A stretch of 64,000 nt of DNA from contig CAMASI010000010.1 of assembly GCA_945861065.1 (NCBI GenBank), positions 1-64,000 on the forward strand, read 5' to 3'. Position 1 is the stretch's first letter. Every line of letters starts with the position of its first letter. Positions 36,201 to 45,066 of this stretch are shown here, piece after piece. The notes beneath the pieces were generated by a model, which saw only the letters and a program-made list of their open reading frames with translations, did not search any database and was not told the DNA's origin. The position numbers and the translations under genes were made by a program. This DNA comes from Klebsiella pneumoniae (GTDB lineage Bacteria > Myxococcota_A > UBA796 > GCA-2862545).

Positions 36201-37425
36201 GTATCGTTGGCCACGAGGCCGCTCCGACCACGCGGATTTCGCCAGAGGCAGTGCGCTGGACGTCGCCGACACAGGTCCCGTCGGCGCCTACGTCGGGACC
36301 GCCCAGGCGAAGGAGCCGAGTTCGCTCCAGGGTGCACCGCGCGTGGACTGCGACCGACCCGTCGCCGTGCACACGTCCGGAGACTTGGAGATCGCCGACA
36401 AACCCACGCGCCGTCGCTTGCGTCAGGGTCAGCGCTCCGTTCGACCAAACCCCATCCGCTTTGATGCGCTCGACGGGTTCTCCGTCAATCTCAGCCGAAG
36501 CGCCTCGCAACTGAAGGTCCACGGCGCCGTCCTGCCCGGAGAGCCGCAGTTGCCCGGTCAACACCACGGCGGTCGTCAAGCGCGCCACGGACGAGACGTC
36601 AAACCGCTCCGTGGCGACGTCCGCCGACCAAGTCGCGGTCGAAGCATCGACACGCGCCTTCAAATCGGCCCGCCCAGCCGTGCCCGAAACGTGCCCACCG
36701 AGCACCACGTTCGTGAGCGGACCGGCCGCCGTCACTACCGCGGAAAAACCCCGCAGGTCCGCGGCCGCTGACGTCTCGATCAGCCTGGTCCCCGCTGGGT
36801 CCACGACGACGGCACCCGCCAAGGTCCAAGGCGCAATTTCAGGCGCTACAAGTCCGCCGGATACGCCATCCAATACGGCGACCACCGTCGCCCCAGCGCT
36901 ATAGAATCGGCCGTCCACGGACCCGTTTTCCACAACAATCGAAGGGCTCCCAACCACGGAGACCGCCACCTCACGTATCGCCACCTGATCGACACAAACG
37001 TCCACGCCCAGGCCCGCCCAGGGTTCGGCGTTTGGCGCTGACGCAGGGAGCAAGCTCGCAAGGTCAAGCTCACCACCAGGCCCGACCGTCGCCACCACGG
37101 TCAGCTTCTCCACCGTCAACGAACGAACGTGCAACCCTCGGTGCCACAGCGCGGCTGGGTCCAGATCGACGCTGACCCGGCCCGCAGAGATCACATCGCG
37201 ACCCGAGGCGTGCACGACGACATCGGACACCACGAGACGAAGAAAACCCTCGAAGGCCACCTGTCCGACGGTCACCTCACCCTGTGCGAGAAGCGCAGTC
37301 AGCCGCTCGCCGAGCTGTTCTGCGGCCCACTGATCCCACTTCGTACTGAACCAAACGCTCGCGACGACGCCCGACCCGAACACCAGCGCCGTTCCCGCAA
37401 GTACCCATCGCACCCTGCCCGTCAT
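33223..37425 (-). CDS. tamB: TamB-like translocation and assembly protein (DUF490)
   Basis: The product is 1,400 residues. The ATG overlaps the TamA-like stop (ATGA). One N-terminal membrane anchor (VRWVLAGTALVFGSGVVASV) is followed by over 1,200 residues of repeating short beta strands (LDLDVSGTGIPLGLLALG and many similar), as expected for the long hydrophobic-groove beta-taco that bridges the periplasm. The C-terminal DUF490 region is clear: DLTIQGTPSAPDLSLTSEAY, then LTQRLVLATGLGYP and the closing LGWEIRF. It should work with the preceding BamA-family protein to insert outer-membrane proteins or move lipids to the outer membrane. It is longer than E. coli TamB (about 1,260). Confidence 0.9.
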   Translation of the reverse strand: MTGRVRWVLAGTALVFGSGVVASVWFSTKWDQWAAEQLGERLTALLAQGEVTVGQVAFEGFLRLVVSDVVVHASGRDVISAGRVSVDLDPAALWHRGLHVRSLTVEKLTVVATVGPGGELDLASLLPASAPNAEPWAGLGVDVCVDQVAIREVAVSVVGSPSIVVENGSVDGRFYSAGATVVAVLDGVSGGLVAPEIAPWTLAGAVVVDPAGTRLIETSAAADLRGFSAVVTAAGPLTNVVLGGHVSGTAGRADLKARVDASTATWSADVATERFDVSSVARLTTAVVLTGQLRLSGQDGAVDLQLRGASAEIDGEPVERIKADGVWSNGALTLTQATARGFVGDLQVSGRVHGDGSVAVHARCTLERTRLLRLGGPDVGADGTCVGDVQRTASGEIRVVGAASWPTIQLPTLLAGATSAAFDVEVVENTVTGTVRLNARAVVAGGAKVGRVTSPPLRLRVAAGQVDVGGAMTLVDLVAGPLVAVDPVYVKFEARSSERGVELDADARLGHLTVAGFEGHSGSVQIAALGNDVNARVTLNAESHPLFETVAQWHGADSTLELNGLVLAPSLRAVWKAPMPVRLIVADGGVTDAHVDLEGALGHITIDGDLGTLGRLDGRVVAHDLQLDVLSELWPESFDGWFGVANVELTLAGDAADPDVVGVVDIGGLWIPDAVRWLDVSGTVRRTAGVLTPDLEIGFAGAPVGRVSGAVPVVGAIDATAIDPEGRASVLFDLFPGSFEQLNRALPSLPVMPEGSVSARVAVRGNVRDPELETSWVAEVVVPGWPEPGRVEGRWSRTPADGVRGFADARRGFESFVTVDAAAKDRLSEVFAAALGGLALPESSSWLGEVAGRVSGAQVDVQGLLAAASLDLPIVGALSGDVAWSGPAFTPRLRSSVRWTDGEVAGVPVDAATLAVEPRSDGAYDLALATAFPDGGSFSVTGTSPDPFTGGAVDLDVSGTGIPLGLLALGDRAIHAAGGVVNLSGTVGGTLALPEPELVLAVVDGRLTYPPWGLAVDGLMVEAEVDRRRLRIERMTANTAPARRVSDADATALSRITAAGGVRRADDGTLAFGVNLGFDNAWVAGRPDLALRVDGNADVSGNWPSVTVRGDVVVVSGRVLMNTADAAAAPKELDARLHVVSAAPETVRPSVPVAAPVDLDVDLALDLGRNLQLVVGMPFVDDGGDVGAAVGRMDVTARLGGQVALTVDDGTPVLVGVVDVVGGHASLLRSRFELSEGTVTFAGGDPWEPDLDLAARMDLTGASVDLTIQGTPSAPDLSLTSEAYADPAMVMAMVLTGTRPDSLGTDQGAAAAGAVAGVLFDRVVGAASAGSASVDADGTVRVGFPVARSLYVQSVVAPNAGLGENSLTLEAEWALTQRLVLATGLGYPNSWTDLGWEIRF

Positions 37426-39509
37426 CGGGCTTCCCCAATCACCAGGTAGAACACCATCGCGAAGGGCGGGTGAGACTCGGTGGCTCGCCACGCCGGAAAC
37501 GCCGAGAAAAAATCCGAAACGCGGGCGTTTGCCTCTCCCACCACACAATCGATGACGTCCGCCGGGCCTTGGTCTTCTGGGTACAGCGGGCGGAACGACA
37601 AATCGAATCGGATGGGCCCAACTGCCGTGTCGTAGCGTGTGCCTACGCCGGCAGAAGCGCGCAGCAGGTCTGCAGACAACGCGCCACCCTGTGGCGCCAA
37701 CATGCCCGCGTCTACAAACGTGGCGAGCCGCAGACCCGAACGCAGGTCGTATCGAAACTCCGCGCTCGCCAACCACGCCGAAGTCCCGCCACGGGGCAAA
37801 TACAGGTGGTCGCCTTCCCCGAGCAACGCGAACGGATCTTCGGAGCAGAGCGTCTCGTAAGGACCGACCTGATCGGTCCGAAAGCCCCGCAGGTCCGAGG
37901 CCCCACCGAGAAAAATCTGCTCTGGATAGGGGATGCCCTGGTCGTTGAGCGGCTCGACCCATTCCGCCTTCGCGGTCAGCACCGCCACGAGGGGAAAGCC
38001 TCGGTATCCCAACCGAATCGGGATGTAGCCCCGCATTTCCGCCGTCGCACCGAAGAAGGCGTAGTCGCCCGAGCCCAGTGGGATCGCCTCGCGAAACGAC
38101 AGGGCGCTGTAGGTGCCGCGCCGGCCATGGGTGCGGTCATCTCGCCGATCCAGCGCCAACCCCTGGTCCAAATACGCAAGCTGGTACGGGTTCTGGAAGT
38201 CAGCGCCGAACGAAGACCGCGCTGCTTGGCGCTGCGGGACGGAATCCAACAAGTAGTCGTACTGGGTGAACCCAGGGCCAAAACTGGCCGACAAGTTGCG
38301 CGTAGGCTCGGCCCGAAGGGTGATCGAGGCCGACGGCTGCCGATACCCAAACAGGCCCGACTGTACGTCTTGAACCACGCCACCCTTGGTTTCGAGCCAC
38401 AACTCCTTGCCGCCCAGCCGAGGCCAGCGGAAGGCCAGCTCCGCGCTGTAGGTAGGAAAGAGTGCTTCTGCGCCTGTCGCATCGAAGGACGTCGTTGCCC
38501 CCACCGACGTGGTCAGGTCCATCCGGATGACCCGACGCCCAACGTTGGCGTGCCGAAAAGCCGCCGTCAGCCGCGGTGCAAATTGGGCGCCGTCAAACTC
38601 GACGCCGCCACTGACCCGCAGACGCCGGAAACGACCCTCGGCCAGCCGCACTTCAACGGGCACCTCCGTACGCTCGGGATCCGACAAGTTCGCTTGTACG
38701 GCCGAGACCGAGAACACACCCAGGTCCGACAAACGGCGCCGCGTCTCCGCCAACCTGGTCTGTTTCCAGTTGTCGCCGGTGTCGAAGGGCAGCGCGCTGC
38801 GAACAGCGCCTTCTGGCACCCGAAGCAACCCGCTAACGGTGACCGGCCCCACAGTGGCCAACTTGCCCGGCTCCACGGTCACGAGCAAGTCAACAGCTCG
38901 CTCGTCCTGGTACACCTCCGCGGAGAAATCGCCGACTGCGTAGGGGTAGCCGCTGTCCTTCAGCCGGCTCACCAACAAGTCACGCATCGCAGCCGCGCCC
39001 TCGAGCGAGAACGGATCGCCTTCTCGGACGGGGCCGGTTCGCAAGACCACATCGCCGAAAATTCCGGTCGCTGGGCCCAATCCAGAAATCGTGACGGAAC
39101 GGACTTTCGTCGCCGGACCCGGCACGACGCGACCCACGAGATCGACGACCCCAGCGCGCCGAACCGAAGCCTCCCGGCGACGGACCAATTCCCAGTCGAC
39201 GAACGCGGATTCAAACCATCCCCGATGCGCATAAAACGTGCGGATCCGCTCCTTGTCGGCGTCCAACGCAACGGGGTCGAGCACGTGGGGGCGATGGGTG
39301 AAGGTCAATGGCCACAACAACAGGCCGAACTGCGTGCCCTTCTGCGCCATGGAGGACCGCAGGTCCCAGTCGCTATGGCCCGAGGCCGGCCCGCCGTTTC
39401 CGTCGAAACGAATTCGCCGCACGACGTCTTCACCGGGCGCCCATCGGCGCGCGGGCGTGCAAGCGACGGCCCAAAGGGCCAACAGTCCGAGCAGGAGGCG
39501 CATGACCAT
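37422..39509 (-). CDS. TamA/TamL-like BamA-family outer-membrane protein, possibly lipidated
   Basis: The product is about 695 residues from an ATG with GAGG seven bases upstream. The signal LLLGLLALWAVAC ends in a Cys (residue 19) followed by TPARRW, so lipidation is plausible. Three POTRA-like modules follow (VRRIRFDGNGG, VRSVTISGLGPATG, VGPVTVSGLLRVPEG), then about 380 residues of amphipathic strands forming the barrel. The barrel has the loop-6 motif FLGGASDLRGF of the Omp85 family, and the C-terminus holds VGPIRFDLSF. Coupling to tamB identifies the pair. In Bacteroidetes the TamA counterpart TamL is a lipoprotein, and this gene resembles that state. Confidence 0.9.
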   Translation of the reverse strand: MVMRLLLGLLALWAVACTPARRWAPGEDVVRRIRFDGNGGPASGHSDWDLRSSMAQKGTQFGLLLWPLTFTHRPHVLDPVALDADKERIRTFYAHRGWFESAFVDWELVRRREASVRRAGVVDLVGRVVPGPATKVRSVTISGLGPATGIFGDVVLRTGPVREGDPFSLEGAAAMRDLLVSRLKDSGYPYAVGDFSAEVYQDERAVDLLVTVEPGKLATVGPVTVSGLLRVPEGAVRSALPFDTGDNWKQTRLAETRRRLSDLGVFSVSAVQANLSDPERTEVPVEVRLAEGRFRRLRVSGGVEFDGAQFAPRLTAAFRHANVGRRVIRMDLTTSVGATTSFDATGAEALFPTYSAELAFRWPRLGGKELWLETKGGVVQDVQSGLFGYRQPSASITLRAEPTRNLSASFGPGFTQYDYLLDSVPQRQAARSSFGADFQNPYQLAYLDQGLALDRRDDRTHGRRGTYSALSFREAIPLGSGDYAFFGATAEMRGYIPIRLGYRGFPLVAVLTAKAEWVEPLNDQGIPYPEQIFLGGASDLRGFRTDQVGPYETLCSEDPFALLGEGDHLYLPRGGTSAWLASAEFRYDLRSGLRLATFVDAGMLAPQGGALSADLLRASAGVGTRYDTAVGPIRFDLSFRPLYPEDQGPADVIDCVVGEANARVSDFFSAFPAWRATESHPPFAMVFYLVIGEAR

Positions 39510-39640
39510 CCGGCGGCCTCGGAAACAGCTCCGAGGTACGTCGCGCAGAAGCGTTAGCACGCCTCCTCGGAGTCCCCATTCCCCCCGACATTCGCGCGCT
39601 GCTGCTTCACGCTTCCGCACTCGTCGCAGCTGCCGTTGGG

Positions 39641-40162
39641 GTGGTGCTCCTCACGTCTGGCCTGCTCAGCCAATGGGATGGCCGTCTCACGCACCGACTT
39701 CCGGGCGAGGTCGACGCGCCTGTCCTCGGCGTGGTTTTGCTCGAACCCGACGGCGACTCCCGCGTGTTGTGGTGGCCGTCTTGGGTCGTACAAAGCCTGG
39801 ACCTCAAGGTCGAAAAGTCTAGTTTCGCAGCGCCCCGTGTGAACGGAACGAGGCCGGAGACACACAAATCCCGGTGGAGCCTGTCCTACGGCGTACGAAA
39901 GACGCCGGAAGCGCCCGACATCGACGTGTCCACCCTTTCGTCGCGCACAATGGGATTGGGCGGGTTGTTTTTCTTGGTCGGCCTCGCACTGCGCAACATG
40001 TGGTGGTCCGGTGCGCCGTGGCGAATCGACGCACGCGACGTCGTGCTGCCCGCTGCCCTCGCGAAACCCGGACAACCCATCGTTCCACCCACGGCACCGC
40101 CGCCGCCGCCCAAGCCGGGACCACCACCCCCACGACGTCGCACTGGCCGCGGCAGGCGCTGA
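39641..40162 (+). CDS. Unknown membrane protein with Pro/Arg-rich tail
   Basis: The product is 173 residues from a GTG at 39641. The family was not recognised. A membrane segment lies at the very start (VVLLTSGLLSQW), and the same frame upstream reads as more of a hydrophobic helix (LLLHASALVAAAVG), so the gene may begin earlier, although no ATG, GTG or TTG is there before the in-frame stop near 39503. A soluble, strand-rich region follows, then a second membrane helix (GLGGLFFLVGLALRNMWW) and a cytoplasmic tail with eight or more prolines and RRRTGRGRR. It is divergent from the TamA-like gene and sits 3 bases before the asparagine-synthetase-like gene, so co-expression with that gene is likely. 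Confidence 0.62.
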   Translation: MVLLTSGLLSQWDGRLTHRLPGEVDAPVLGVVLLEPDGDSRVLWWPSWVVQSLDLKVEKSSFAAPRVNGTRPETHKSRWSLSYGVRKTPEAPDIDVSTLSSRTMGLGGLFFLVGLALRNMWWSGAPWRIDARDVVLPAALAKPGQPIVPPTAPPPPPKPGPPPPRRRTGRGRR

Positions 40163-40165
40163 GTC

Positions 40166-42013
40166 ATGGGCGCCATCGTTGGTGTGATTGACTTCGACAT
40201 CGCCGACCCCGCGGACGTGCCCCGTATGGGCGCGGCTATCGCCACACGGGCGTCCGGCGACCTGAGCCGATGGCACGACGGACCCGCGGCACTTGGATTT
40301 CGCCCACGGAGGGCGGGGACCACCCCCCGTCAACCGGTCGTCTCCGGCGACCTGGTCGTCGTGCTCGACGGCTGGGTGTATGAGCACGAGGACCTCGCGC
40401 GCACGGCCGGCGCCGAACCCGGCCTCAGTGACACAGAAAGCGTGGCGAGCGCCTGGTTTCGGTGGGGACCGACCACCCCAGAACGCATGGAGGGCGACTT
40501 CGCCATCGTGGTGTGGAACCGCGCCACCCAACGCCTACACCTCGTACGCGACCCCTTGGGCGTTCGCCCCTTGTATTGGACGGCCAAGGGCCGAAAATTT
40601 GCCTTCGCGAGCGACCCAGAGGCCTTGTTCGCGCTTCCCTGGGTACAACGGTCCGTCGCGTGGAACACGGTGAGCGAGTACCTCGCCTTTCAGGTCGTTC
40701 ATGCGCCGCGAACCCTGTTGGAAGGCATCTTCCAGCTGGAGCCGGGCCATATGATGGAGGTCGGCGACGGTATCCGTCGGTCCGTCCCCTGGTGGACGCC
40801 GTACCACGCGCGGCCGAGCGCCCAACGACCCCGCGAACGAGACCTGGTCGAGGCGCTCAACGACGCTGTGATCGGCGCAGTTCGCCGACGAATTCCGAAG
40901 GGGCGGCCTACCGGCTTGTACCTGTCTGGCGGCCTTGGAAGCACGGCCATTGCCGTGGCTGCTCGCAGCCAGAACTTGGCCCTCCCCGCGTTTACCGTCG
41001 CCCTGGACGACGAAGCGCATCCCGAGAGTCCGTTCGCCGGACGTGTGGCGCGCCTGCTCGGCCTGCCCGAACACCACGAAATTCGCGTGGGGTCTGCCGA
41101 TGTCGCCTCCACGTTCGACGAAGCCGTAAGCGCGCTCGGTCACCCCGTCGGCCAGCCTTCCGCAACGCTGCAACTGCTGCTGGGACGGCGGGCGTCGGCC
41201 TCCGTCGAAGTCGCCCTGTCGGGAGACGGCGGCGACGAACTTTTTGGCGGGCGAATGCTGGCGGGCCTGTCGCGACGCCTCGCGTTCGGCCAGATGCTCG
41301 AACGTGTTCCTGCGCCCGCCCGACGCCTGTGGGCCTCGGTCCTCATCGGCGCACCCTCGGCCCGCAAGGCACTCACCGATCCCCAAGGATGGCCCCTCAC
41401 CCGAGGCCTCGGCGGCCGGGATTTGTTCAGCGACGCCGACCGCCAGTCCTTGTTCCGCGACCCCGAGTTGGTGCGACCCGGGCTTCGTCAGGAAATCCTC
41501 CACCCGTTTTACGACGCGCTGGTCGCGGACCCGATCAACACCGTGTTGTGGGGCTGGCTTCGGTCGTGGCTGGCGGAAGGTGCCTTGCCGCTCGCAGAAC
41601 GTACCGCGGCTGCCGCAGGGCTCGACCTTCGGTTTCCTCTGCTCGACCGCGCCGTGCTCAGCGCCGCGTTCGCGCTACCGGGCACGTCAAAAGTCGGCCG
41701 CATGGGTGGCTCGCTCCACACCCGCTGGCCGCTGCGCGCGTTGTTGACAGGCGCGTTGCCCCCAGCCCTCATCGACCGACCCAAGCGCGGCCTTCCGGTT
41801 CTGCCAGCGTGGCTGGCTCGGTCCGGACGGTTGTTCTTCGAGGCTCGTTTTGCGCGCCTGCGATCAGACCCGAGCGGACCCTTCAACCCCGCCGCGTTGG
41901 ACCTCCTCCGGGCGCGCCTTCCCATGGACCCGGAGGCCGGCACCCGCCTGTGGTCGCTTTTCATCCTCGACGCGTGGCTCAGAAATACCTCGCGCGGAAA
42001 CGAGCGCAGTTAG
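40166..42013 (+). CDS. Asparagine synthetase-like protein lacking the catalytic Cys and the P-loop Asp
   Basis: The product is 615 residues with the two domains of glutamine-dependent asparagine synthetase. The N-terminal amidotransferase half starts MGAIVGVIDF where active enzymes have Met-Cys-Gly-Ile. The nucleophile Cys 2 is therefore Gly, so glutamine hydrolysis is not expected. It still has the fold text VVVLDGWVYEHEDL, EGDFAIVVW and RDPLGVRPLYW. The C-terminal half has the pyrophosphatase loop as LSGGLGSTAIA, with Gly 258 where SGGxDS enzymes have Asp, while GDGGDELFGG and a late FPLLDR are intact. It could be a degenerate regulator, a synthetase with another amine, or related to beta-lactam synthetase-like proteins. 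Its stop is 9 bases before dnaX. Confidence 0.88.
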   Translation: MGAIVGVIDFDIADPADVPRMGAAIATRASGDLSRWHDGPAALGFRPRRAGTTPRQPVVSGDLVVVLDGWVYEHEDLARTAGAEPGLSDTESVASAWFRWGPTTPERMEGDFAIVVWNRATQRLHLVRDPLGVRPLYWTAKGRKFAFASDPEALFALPWVQRSVAWNTVSEYLAFQVVHAPRTLLEGIFQLEPGHMMEVGDGIRRSVPWWTPYHARPSAQRPRERDLVEALNDAVIGAVRRRIPKGRPTGLYLSGGLGSTAIAVAARSQNLALPAFTVALDDEAHPESPFAGRVARLLGLPEHHEIRVGSADVASTFDEAVSALGHPVGQPSATLQLLLGRRASASVEVALSGDGGDELFGGRMLAGLSRRLAFGQMLERVPAPARRLWASVLIGAPSARKALTDPQGWPLTRGLGGRDLFSDADRQSLFRDPELVRPGLRQEILHPFYDALVADPINTVLWGWLRSWLAEGALPLAERTAAAAGLDLRFPLLDRAVLSAAFALPGTSKVGRMGGSLHTRWPLRALLTGALPPALIDRPKRGLPVLPAWLARSGRLFFEARFARLRSDPSGPFNPAALDLLRARLPMDPEAGTRLWSLFILDAWLRNTSRGNERS

Positions 42014-42021
42014 CCAACCGC

Positions 42022-43679
<1,658 letters not shown>

Positions 43680-43683
<4 letters not shown>

Positions 43684-44276
43684 CCGACGACCCCATCCGG
43701 GCGGCAATAGGCCAGCTTCGACGATTTCCCGGCGTCGGAGAAAAGTCAGCAACGCGCCTCGTGTACTGGTTGTTGCGCGCCCCATCGGGCACTGCAGGCG
43801 ACATCGCGCGCGCACTCGACGGCCTCGCCGACAGCGTACGAGAATGCGCGATCTGTTGCGACTTCACTGCACGCGATCCGTGCAACATTTGCAGATCCGA
43901 ACGCCGTGCCGACCAACTGTGTGTCGTCGAGACGCCGGTAGAAGTGTTGGCGATCGAACGTTCCGGCGAGTTCCGCGGTCGGTACCACGTGCTCCATGGC
44001 GCATTGTCACCGCTCGACGGCGTAGGACCTGAATCGCTGAGGGTGCGCCCGCTGTTGGAGCGCTTGCGGACGGGCTCTGTTCGAGAAGTCATCCTGGCCA
44101 CGAACCCCACCGTCGAAGGCGACGCCACCGCCCTGTACCTTGCCCGATTGCTTGAACCGCTGGGGGTGCGCGTCACTCGCCTCGCCCACGGTTTGTCGGT
44201 GGGTTCCGCGATCGAACATGCCGACTCGGTCAGCCTCGCGCGCGCCCTGCACAACCGGCGCGAAGTCGGAACATGA
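43680..44276 (+). CDS. recR: Recombination mediator RecR
   Basis: The product is 198 residues from a GTG overlapping the dnaX stop (GTGA). It has a helix-hairpin-helix (RFPGVGEKSATRLVYWLL), the zinc finger CAICCDFTARDPCNIC and the Toprim segment LCVVETPVEVLAIERSG, ending ARALHNRREVG. It loads RecA at gaps together with RecO/RecF. In most bacteria ybaB (ebfC) lies between dnaX and recR; here it is absent and the genes are fused by a 4-base overlap. Confidence 0.95.
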
Positions 44277-44473
44277 CGCTGCGCCTGAACGGCAATCCAA
44301 TCGCCCTTCAAGAAGGTGCGACAGTCGCAGAACTGCTGAGCAGCAGGGGCATTCCAAGCGATGGCGTCGCGGTCGCCGTCAACCGCACCATTGTGCCCAA
44401 ACGAACGCACGGAACCCACCGCCTTGAGGCAGGCGACGACGTTGAGGTGGTGCGCGCTGTGGGGGGTGGTTGA
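44273..44473 (+). CDS. thiS: ThiS-like sulfur carrier protein
   Basis: The product is 66 residues and has a beta-grasp fold pattern: MTLRLNGNPIALQEGATVAE, LLSSRGI, VAVAVNRTIVPKR, and the end DVEVVRAVGGG. The C-terminal Gly-Gly-Gly is compatible with thiocarboxylation in thiamine thiazole synthesis, where ThiS ends in Gly-Gly. No thiG, thiF or thiH is nearby. It overlaps recR by 4 bases and the next gene by 4, so it is made with them. Confidence 0.82.
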   Translation: MTLRLNGNPIALQEGATVAELLSSRGIPSDGVAVAVNRTIVPKRTHGTHRLEAGDDVEVVRAVGGG

Positions 44474-45066
44474 CCGTCGTATGGCAAGGGCATGGGGTTG
44501 TGGCCATCGACAAGCCGTTTGGCCTTCCGACGCAACGTGGCCCACGCGACACCGACTCCGTGTTGGACCGAGTCAGTGCACAGTTTGGCGCTGCTTTCCC
44601 AGTGCACCGCCTCGATCAAGTCGCGTCGGGCTTGGTGATTGTGGCGGTCACGCGGGAAGCCGCGCGCCGGTGGTCGGAGCTGCTGCAAGTTGGGCGCCTG
44701 CACCGCGGCTACGAAGCCGTCGTGATGGGAGAAACAACGACGTGCATCTGGGACAAGTTCGTCGACGGCAAGGCCGCTCGAACACGGGTGGTCGCCAGCC
44801 CATCACGCGCGGGCATGACCCACGTTTCGGTCAGCCTGGAAACCGGGAGATTCCACCAAATTCGACAGCACGCTGCGCTGGCGGGAACGCCAATCGTCGG
44901 GGACCGTCGCTATGGCATGGAGATCGGTCGACGGTGGCCAAGGCTCGCACTGCATGCGGCGACGCTGATCCTGGACGACGCAACAGACCCGTTGGCCCTG
45001 ACCAGCCCAATTCCAGCCGATCTCGCAGCGTTGTGGTGTTCGGCGGGTCATCCGCCCACCGGTTGA
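44470..45066 (+). CDS. RluA-family pseudouridine synthase
   Basis: The product is 198 residues from a TTG overlapping thiS. The catalytic motif HRLDQVASGLVI has the aspartate of the family, VVAIDKPFGLPTQ is the usual start of the fold, and LETGRFHQIRQHAALAGTPIVGD is the conserved back half. It is short, lacking an S4 domain and the C-terminal extension, like the smaller RluA/TruC types. It converts a uridine in rRNA or tRNA to pseudouridine; the target position is unknown. Its last 12 bases lie opposite the 3' end of the SRP RNA. Confidence 0.9.
   Translation: MTVVWQGHGVVAIDKPFGLPTQRGPRDTDSVLDRVSAQFGAAFPVHRLDQVASGLVIVAVTREAARRWSELLQVGRLHRGYEAVVMGETTTCIWDKFVDGKAARTRVVASPSRAGMTHVSVSLETGRFHQIRQHAALAGTPIVGDRRYGMEIGRRWPRLALHAATLILDDATDPLALTSPIPADLAALWCSAGHPPTG

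Follow-up and report, generated by a model that had tools for sequence, protein, structure and literature searches.

An AsnB-like protein lacking both key catalytic residues: a candidate pseudo-synthetase retained under selection

Can a protein with the two domains of an asparagine synthetase, but with neither of the residues on which its two active sites depend, still be an enzyme? This question is raised by an AsnB-like gene, here named asnL, found in the window, i.e. the whole 64,000-nucleotide stretch of DNA that was analysed (Table 1). The original prediction was that Gly2 replaces the glutaminase Cys and Gly258 the PP-loop Asp, while the rest of both domains is intact, and that such a double change points to a pseudoenzyme or to a new chemistry. 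The 615-aa product starts with MGAIVGVID and matches the Pfam models GATase_7 (6.5e-22) and Asn_synthase (1e-55), both above cut-off; its domain content and fold are those of the asparagine synthase superfamily (PF00733 plus GATase_7). However, it scores 226.1 bits against the NCBIfam asparagine synthase model TIGR01536, whose equivalog cut-off is 267.1, and 168.7 bits against the lasso peptide cyclase model NF033535, with a cut-off of 525; all specialised NCBIfam subfamilies were missed by a wide margin. An AlphaFold model built with 40 orthologues has a confident AsnB fold (mean pLDDT 92, pTM 0.92), and Foldseek aligned it over its full length with TsnB9, E. coli AsnB, beta-lactam synthetase, human ASNS and carbapenam synthetase, with E values down to 2e-28.

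Table 1. Positions in the window of asnL, of its diagnostic residues and of the neighbouring genes
Feature	Position	Strand	Basis
tamA-like gene for outer membrane assembly, transcribed divergently to the small membrane protein gene; remains adjacent to asnL across f1	37422..39620	-	name by inspection
Upstream small membrane protein gene	39641..40162	+	GTG start at 39641; ends 3 bases before the asnL ATG
asnL (AsnB-like gene, name given here), proposed pseudo-synthetase	40166..42013	+	615 aa; ORF and homologue matches
Class II glutaminase (Ntn, GATase_7) domain at the N-terminus (residues 1-155), nucleophile missing	40166..40630	+	Pfam GATase_7, residues 55-155; AlphaFold model; Cys2, Arg50 and Asn75 equivalents absent
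Gly2 codon (GGC) replacing the glutaminase Cys	40169..40171	+	Cys in 0/52 orthologues, 19/19 paralogues, 20/20 phylum AsnB-like genes
Asn_synthase (PP-loop ATP pyrophosphatase) domain	40856..41983	+	Pfam PF00733, E 1e-55, residues 231-606
PP-loop SGGLGS; Gly258 codon GGA at 40937-40939 replacing Asp	40925..40942	+	alignment
GDGGDELFGG motif; D357 (41234-41236) corresponds to Asp352 of E. coli AsnB (Met counted), the second Asp of the active site	41222..41251	+	alignment
Arg520 codon; every comparator outside f1 has Lys here	41723..41725	+	alignment
Lys540 codon (RPKR); corresponds to Lys450 of E. coli AsnB (Met counted) and to human Lys466; essential in AS-B	41783..41785	+	alignment; role from PMC6748925
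dnaX-like gene (DNA polymerase III gamma/tau); begins with a GTG 8 bases beyond asnL and follows it in most of f1	42022..43683	+	frame and motif by inspection
recR-like gene, overlapping with the end of dnaX	43680..44276	+	name by inspection

In the following, f1 is the family of the window genome (G000) and f2-f6 are other families of the same order. Matches to asnL were found in 54 of 58 relatives, and 52 orthologues were taken (20 from f1, three from f5 and 29 from f2, f3, f4 and f6); for comparison, E. coli AsnB was used together with 19 paralogues of AsnB type found in this order and its class, and the 20 AsnB-like genes scoring best in the rest of the phylum were read separately. With an f1 profile, members of the order scored at least 672 bits, except for one split copy at 486, while the best gene outside the order reached 406; in a plasmid search the best matches were AsnB-like proteins with only 25-31% identity. 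Homologues at the same locus carry the same residues as the window protein, and none with a normal Cys and Asp was found there.

The absence of the glutaminase nucleophile was borne out. Cys2 is missing from all orthologues, as opposed to its presence in 39/39 AsnB-type comparators (the paralogues and the same-phylum genes) and in E. coli AsnB; the residue is mostly Gly, but two sequences are truncated and show a gap there, and the start is uncertain in two or three. The two residues that bind Gln in E. coli AsnB are also replaced in the window protein (Arg50 by Pro47, Asn75 by Asp68), with Asp99 kept as Asp89. Since both are lost or degenerate across the orthologues, besides Cys2, the glutaminase site is very probably dead throughout the order-wide family and, as read from this alignment, the loss of the Cys is an old event, ancestral to that family.

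The PP-loop substitution is equally real and has a different history. The position is Gly in 20/20 f1 sequences and Ala in 3/3 from f5, while Asp is found in 29/29 orthologues from f2, f3, f4 and f6 and in 39/39 comparators. On a quick maximum-likelihood tree, computed after removing the four trait columns, f1 forms one clade (99) and the residue changes twice, from Asp to Gly in f1 and from Asp to Ala in f5; the deeper nodes, which separate the families, have only moderate support (87-93). Thus, by its distribution in the alignment, the loss of the PP-loop Asp is specific to f1 and fixed there, with a second, convergent loss in f5, and what had been taken for one double change consists of two independent events, an order-wide loss of Cys and an f1-specific loss of Asp. 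In the three f5 sequences (L024, L025 and L050) the loop reads SGGTAS or SGGGAS, and both the Lys and the Asp of GGDE/GADE are retained.

The claim that the rest of both domains is intact stands only in part. The GDGGDELFGG motif is indeed complete, but several further catalytic positions have changed: in the synthetase half Tyr358, Arg388 and Lys430 of E. coli AsnB correspond to Arg363, Leu476 and Arg520. In the human enzyme the pyrophosphate has been placed on the SGGxD loop, with Lys466, whose equivalent is essential in AS-B, touching the adenylate phosphate and Asp367 the amino group of the aspartyl-AMP intermediate (PMC6748925); through our E. coli AsnB alignment these elements were matched to SGGLGS, Lys540 and Asp357 of the window protein. 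This Asp of the GxGxDE motif and this essential Lys (E. coli 352 and 450) are both present in the window protein and vary across f1, the former being Glu in ten, Asp in nine and Val in one sequence, the latter Lys in 15, Asp in four and Gln in one; outside f1 all sequences have Asp and Lys. The change of the essential Lys to Asp (RPDR) is found in one f1 sub-clade, L020, L021, L022 and L023 (genomes G016, G002, G004 and G006). Position 520 (E. coli Lys430, Met counted) is Arg in 20/20 f1 sequences and Lys in 29/29 from f2, f3, f4 and f6, in 3/3 from f5 and in 19/19 paralogues. Over the 31 positions conserved in both Asp-retaining orthologues and paralogues, retention in f1 is lowest for D258 (0%), K520 (0%), D357 (45%), K540 (75%) and L595 (75%), and is 100% for S254, G255, G256 and S259 of the PP-loop; glycines and structural residues are 95-100% conserved. 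About 20 f1-specific positions are fixed or nearly fixed, e.g. Asp62 in 19/20.

The gene itself is maintained. A full-length intact ORF is present in 20/21 f1 genomes, with 44-57% identity to the window protein. The dN/dS ratio (NG86) is 0.02 for G004/G016, the sole close and unsaturated f1 pair, and 0.2-0.35 for diverged pairs, where it is rough because between-species dS is near saturation; asnL is under purifying selection in f1.

The usual gene order in f1 is tamA on the opposite strand, a small membrane protein, asnL, dnaX, a small ORF at the ybaB position and recR (names by inspection); the recR-like gene probably shares an operon with the dnaX-like one. A scan of 39400-44500 for promoters and terminators gave nothing clear above chance. 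The proposed link with the membrane protein gene holds as far as the 3-base spacing and the presence of a divergent homologue upstream of asnL in about half of f1 are concerned; however, this protein is not an obligatory partner, as in G004 and G016 only about 90 bases separate tamA and asnL and therefore no membrane ORF is found there. It evolves fast and has no Pfam match, and its homologues, as a rule, combine two TM segments with a basic, Pro-rich tail. In the window its frame (39530-40162) continues open upstream of the first GTG through a hydrophobic segment, without ATG, GTG or TTG, where it overlaps with the beginning of the tamA-like gene, which runs the other way; for this reason the true start may lie upstream of 39641. 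As to dnaX, its linkage is weakened as a functional clue, since in G020 it lies on another contig while the membrane ORF and tamA stay with asnL, since G011 has dnaX and no asnL, and since in some f2 and f5 relatives the orthologue sits beside isc or pilus genes. In L039 and L047 (f2) and L050 (f5) it lies just upstream of an isc-like operon, with genes for a MerR-family regulator and IscS-, IscU-, IscA-, HscB- and HscA-like proteins.

Several explanations may be considered for this protein. An error of sequencing or assembly, or a real Cys masked by a wrongly called start, would be conceivable in a draft genome of 147 contigs, but it has next to no probability: the PP-loop residue is the same in 20 independent genomes, position 2 of the orthologues lines up exactly with the MCGI of AsnB, and the GGA codon of Gly258 is two base changes away from either Asp codon (GAT/GAC), so that a single-base error cannot explain it; conservation across the 20 genomes led us to reject a recent mutation as well. 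A decaying gene heading for loss would agree with the erosion of several catalytic positions in f1 and with the lack of an orthologue in G011, a 97% complete f1 genome whose genus-mate G020 has one; it is nonetheless improbable in view of the intact ORFs, of dN/dS values well below 1 and of the conservation of glycines and structural residues. Greater weight, although still that of an unlikely alternative, is given to an active Cys-less amide ligase with altered metal binding, which would adenylate a carboxylate and couple it to ammonia or an amine, as beta-lactam synthetase and lasso cyclases do, with another residue or water in place of the PP-loop Asp. Other chemistries are known among AS-family ligases (PMC13060819), the remainder of SGGxGS does not vary, most f1 members retain Lys540, and Gly258 and Arg520 are fixed rather than drifting; the perfect conservation of this Gly, together with the (nearly) fixed f1-specific residues such as Asp62, could point to an altered but active site. 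Against it, the PP-loop Asp is invariant in 39 AsnB comparators and in the 29 orthologues that retain it, one f1 sub-clade has Asp for the essential Lys, and the second Asp is Glu or Val in half of f1; moreover, no biosynthetic cluster was seen next to asnL in the f1 and relatives' neighbourhoods examined, its neighbours being tamA-, dnaX- and recR-like genes, or isc genes in other families.

A further possibility is that the asnL product is the ammonia-dependent asparagine synthetase of the organism, since it is the only protein with a full Asn_synthase domain in G000. Indeed, this genome (91% complete) has AsnRS, while AsnA, GatB and a second full Asn_synthase protein were not found in it, and similar patterns occur in several relatives; the search for another complete AsnB that the original prediction had suggested thus gave none, two weak extra hits being, by inspection, other PP-loop proteins, a LarE-like one of 266 aa and an MnmA-like one of 352 aa. 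Such a role is nevertheless very improbable: the PP-loop Asp is lost, the Tyr358 and Arg388 positions are replaced, some f1 members (G004, G006, G008 and G009) have a separate AsnB-like gene, and auxotrophy can explain the absence of Asn routes. In a joint E. coli query, the IlvC, HisD and TrpB parts had no match in G000, and LeuA and ArgH gave weak matches only (27-32%). Because enzymes for His, Trp and Ile/Val are lacking too, the missing routes are most simply accounted for by asparagine auxotrophy, although incompleteness of the draft may contribute; these data suggest a broadly auxotrophic, perhaps predatory or scavenging, bacterium. Some residual synthetase role keeps a little weight, as G000 shows no other Asn-forming enzyme. 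AsnRS is present in all f1 genomes and GatB is absent from most of them; within the order, AsnRS falls into two score classes, about 545-630 and about 385-457 bits, which suggests that it was replaced or transferred.

The explanation that we consider reasonably probable, and prefer, is that the asnL product is an order-specific, Cys-less AsnB paralogue that turned into a pseudo-synthetase in f1 and is kept there for a non-catalytic role, since both substitutions are fixed in f1, other catalytic positions are eroding and purifying selection persists. Catalytic residues have disappeared from a protein whose gene and fold selection maintains, as expected of a pseudoenzyme, and we infer from the changed residues that the window protein is devoid of adenylation activity; on the other side, it retains Lys540, Asp357 and Glu358. 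Of the two options originally put forward, pseudoenzyme is therefore the better supported and new chemistry the less likely. According to the proposed scenario, an AsnB paralogue, inherited vertically and restricted to the order, would have lost its glutaminase in the order-level ancestor (Cys2 replaced by Gly, and the Arg and Asn that bind Gln also gone), and would at most have remained an ATP-dependent carboxylate ligase using ammonia or amines. The f1 ancestor would then have lost the PP-loop Asp to Gly, with Lys520 changing to Arg, and sub-lineages of f1 the GGDE Asp and the essential Lys as well, while the fold and the SGGxGS phosphate-loop skeleton were apparently retained and the protein kept intact by selection. 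Its working mode would most likely be non-catalytic, that of a folded pseudo-synthetase serving as scaffold or sensor; speculatively, it may still bind a nucleotide or an adenylate-like ligand, and the adjacent small membrane protein is one candidate partner. More tentatively, and with clearly less confidence, we put forward a regulatory or structural pseudo-synthetase derived from AsnB and conserved across f1, in an order with two independent losses of the PP-loop Asp, or else a rearranged ATP chemistry, not known for PP-loop enzymes, supported by SGGxGS.

In the literature searched, which was not exhaustive, we found no paper describing an asparagine synthetase as a pseudoenzyme, nor one in which the PP-loop Asp of AsnB was mutated. 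Among AsnB relatives without the Cys, other chemistries are already known; a lineage of the AsnB family in which both active sites were dismantled stepwise, with intermediates alive in sister families, appears to be undescribed in the same literature. It offers a natural series, from Cys-less proteins with an intact PP-loop to those without the Asp and finally without the Lys, along which one may ask what the fold does without catalysis. Moreover, if such genes were automatically labelled "asparagine synthase", these bacteria would be wrongly taken to make asparagine.

Compared with known systems, the asnL product resembles AsnB (PDB 1CT9; human ASNS 6GQ3) in its two-domain architecture, predicted fold (TM 0.74-0.75 by target), SGG.S and GDGGDE motifs and RPK Lys; it differs from it in lacking the nucleophile Cys and the Gln-binding Arg and Asn, in having Gly for the PP-loop Asp and Arg for the active-site Tyr, and in falling below the TIGR01536 cut-off. 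Beta-lactam and carbapenam synthetases also lack the glutaminase Cys, and their glutaminase half is dead; their PP-loop Asp is intact and used, and they belong to antibiotic clusters. These enzymes (1JGT, 1MB9, 1Q15) share the AsnB fold with the asnL product, as judged by Foldseek, whereas the latter has lost the PP-loop Asp and its gene is flanked by housekeeping genes. More generally, the missing Cys is shared with Cys-less AS-like amide ligases; their intact ATP/Mg site is not found in the window protein or in any f1 member, all with Gly, and is intact only in the f2, f3, f4 and f6 relatives. Lasso peptide cyclases and the peptide-amidating AS-like enzymes TsrC, ScdTA and PesC are PF00733 members catalyzing reactions other than asparagine synthesis (PMC13060819); unlike them, asnL has no precursor-peptide cluster in sight, and the ATP-site residues that they conserve are changed. 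Finally, the best match among solved structures, in both sequence and fold, is the hydroxyamidotransferase TsnB9 (7YLZ), from which the asnL product differs by an identity of only about 20% and by SGGLGS in place of SGGLDS.
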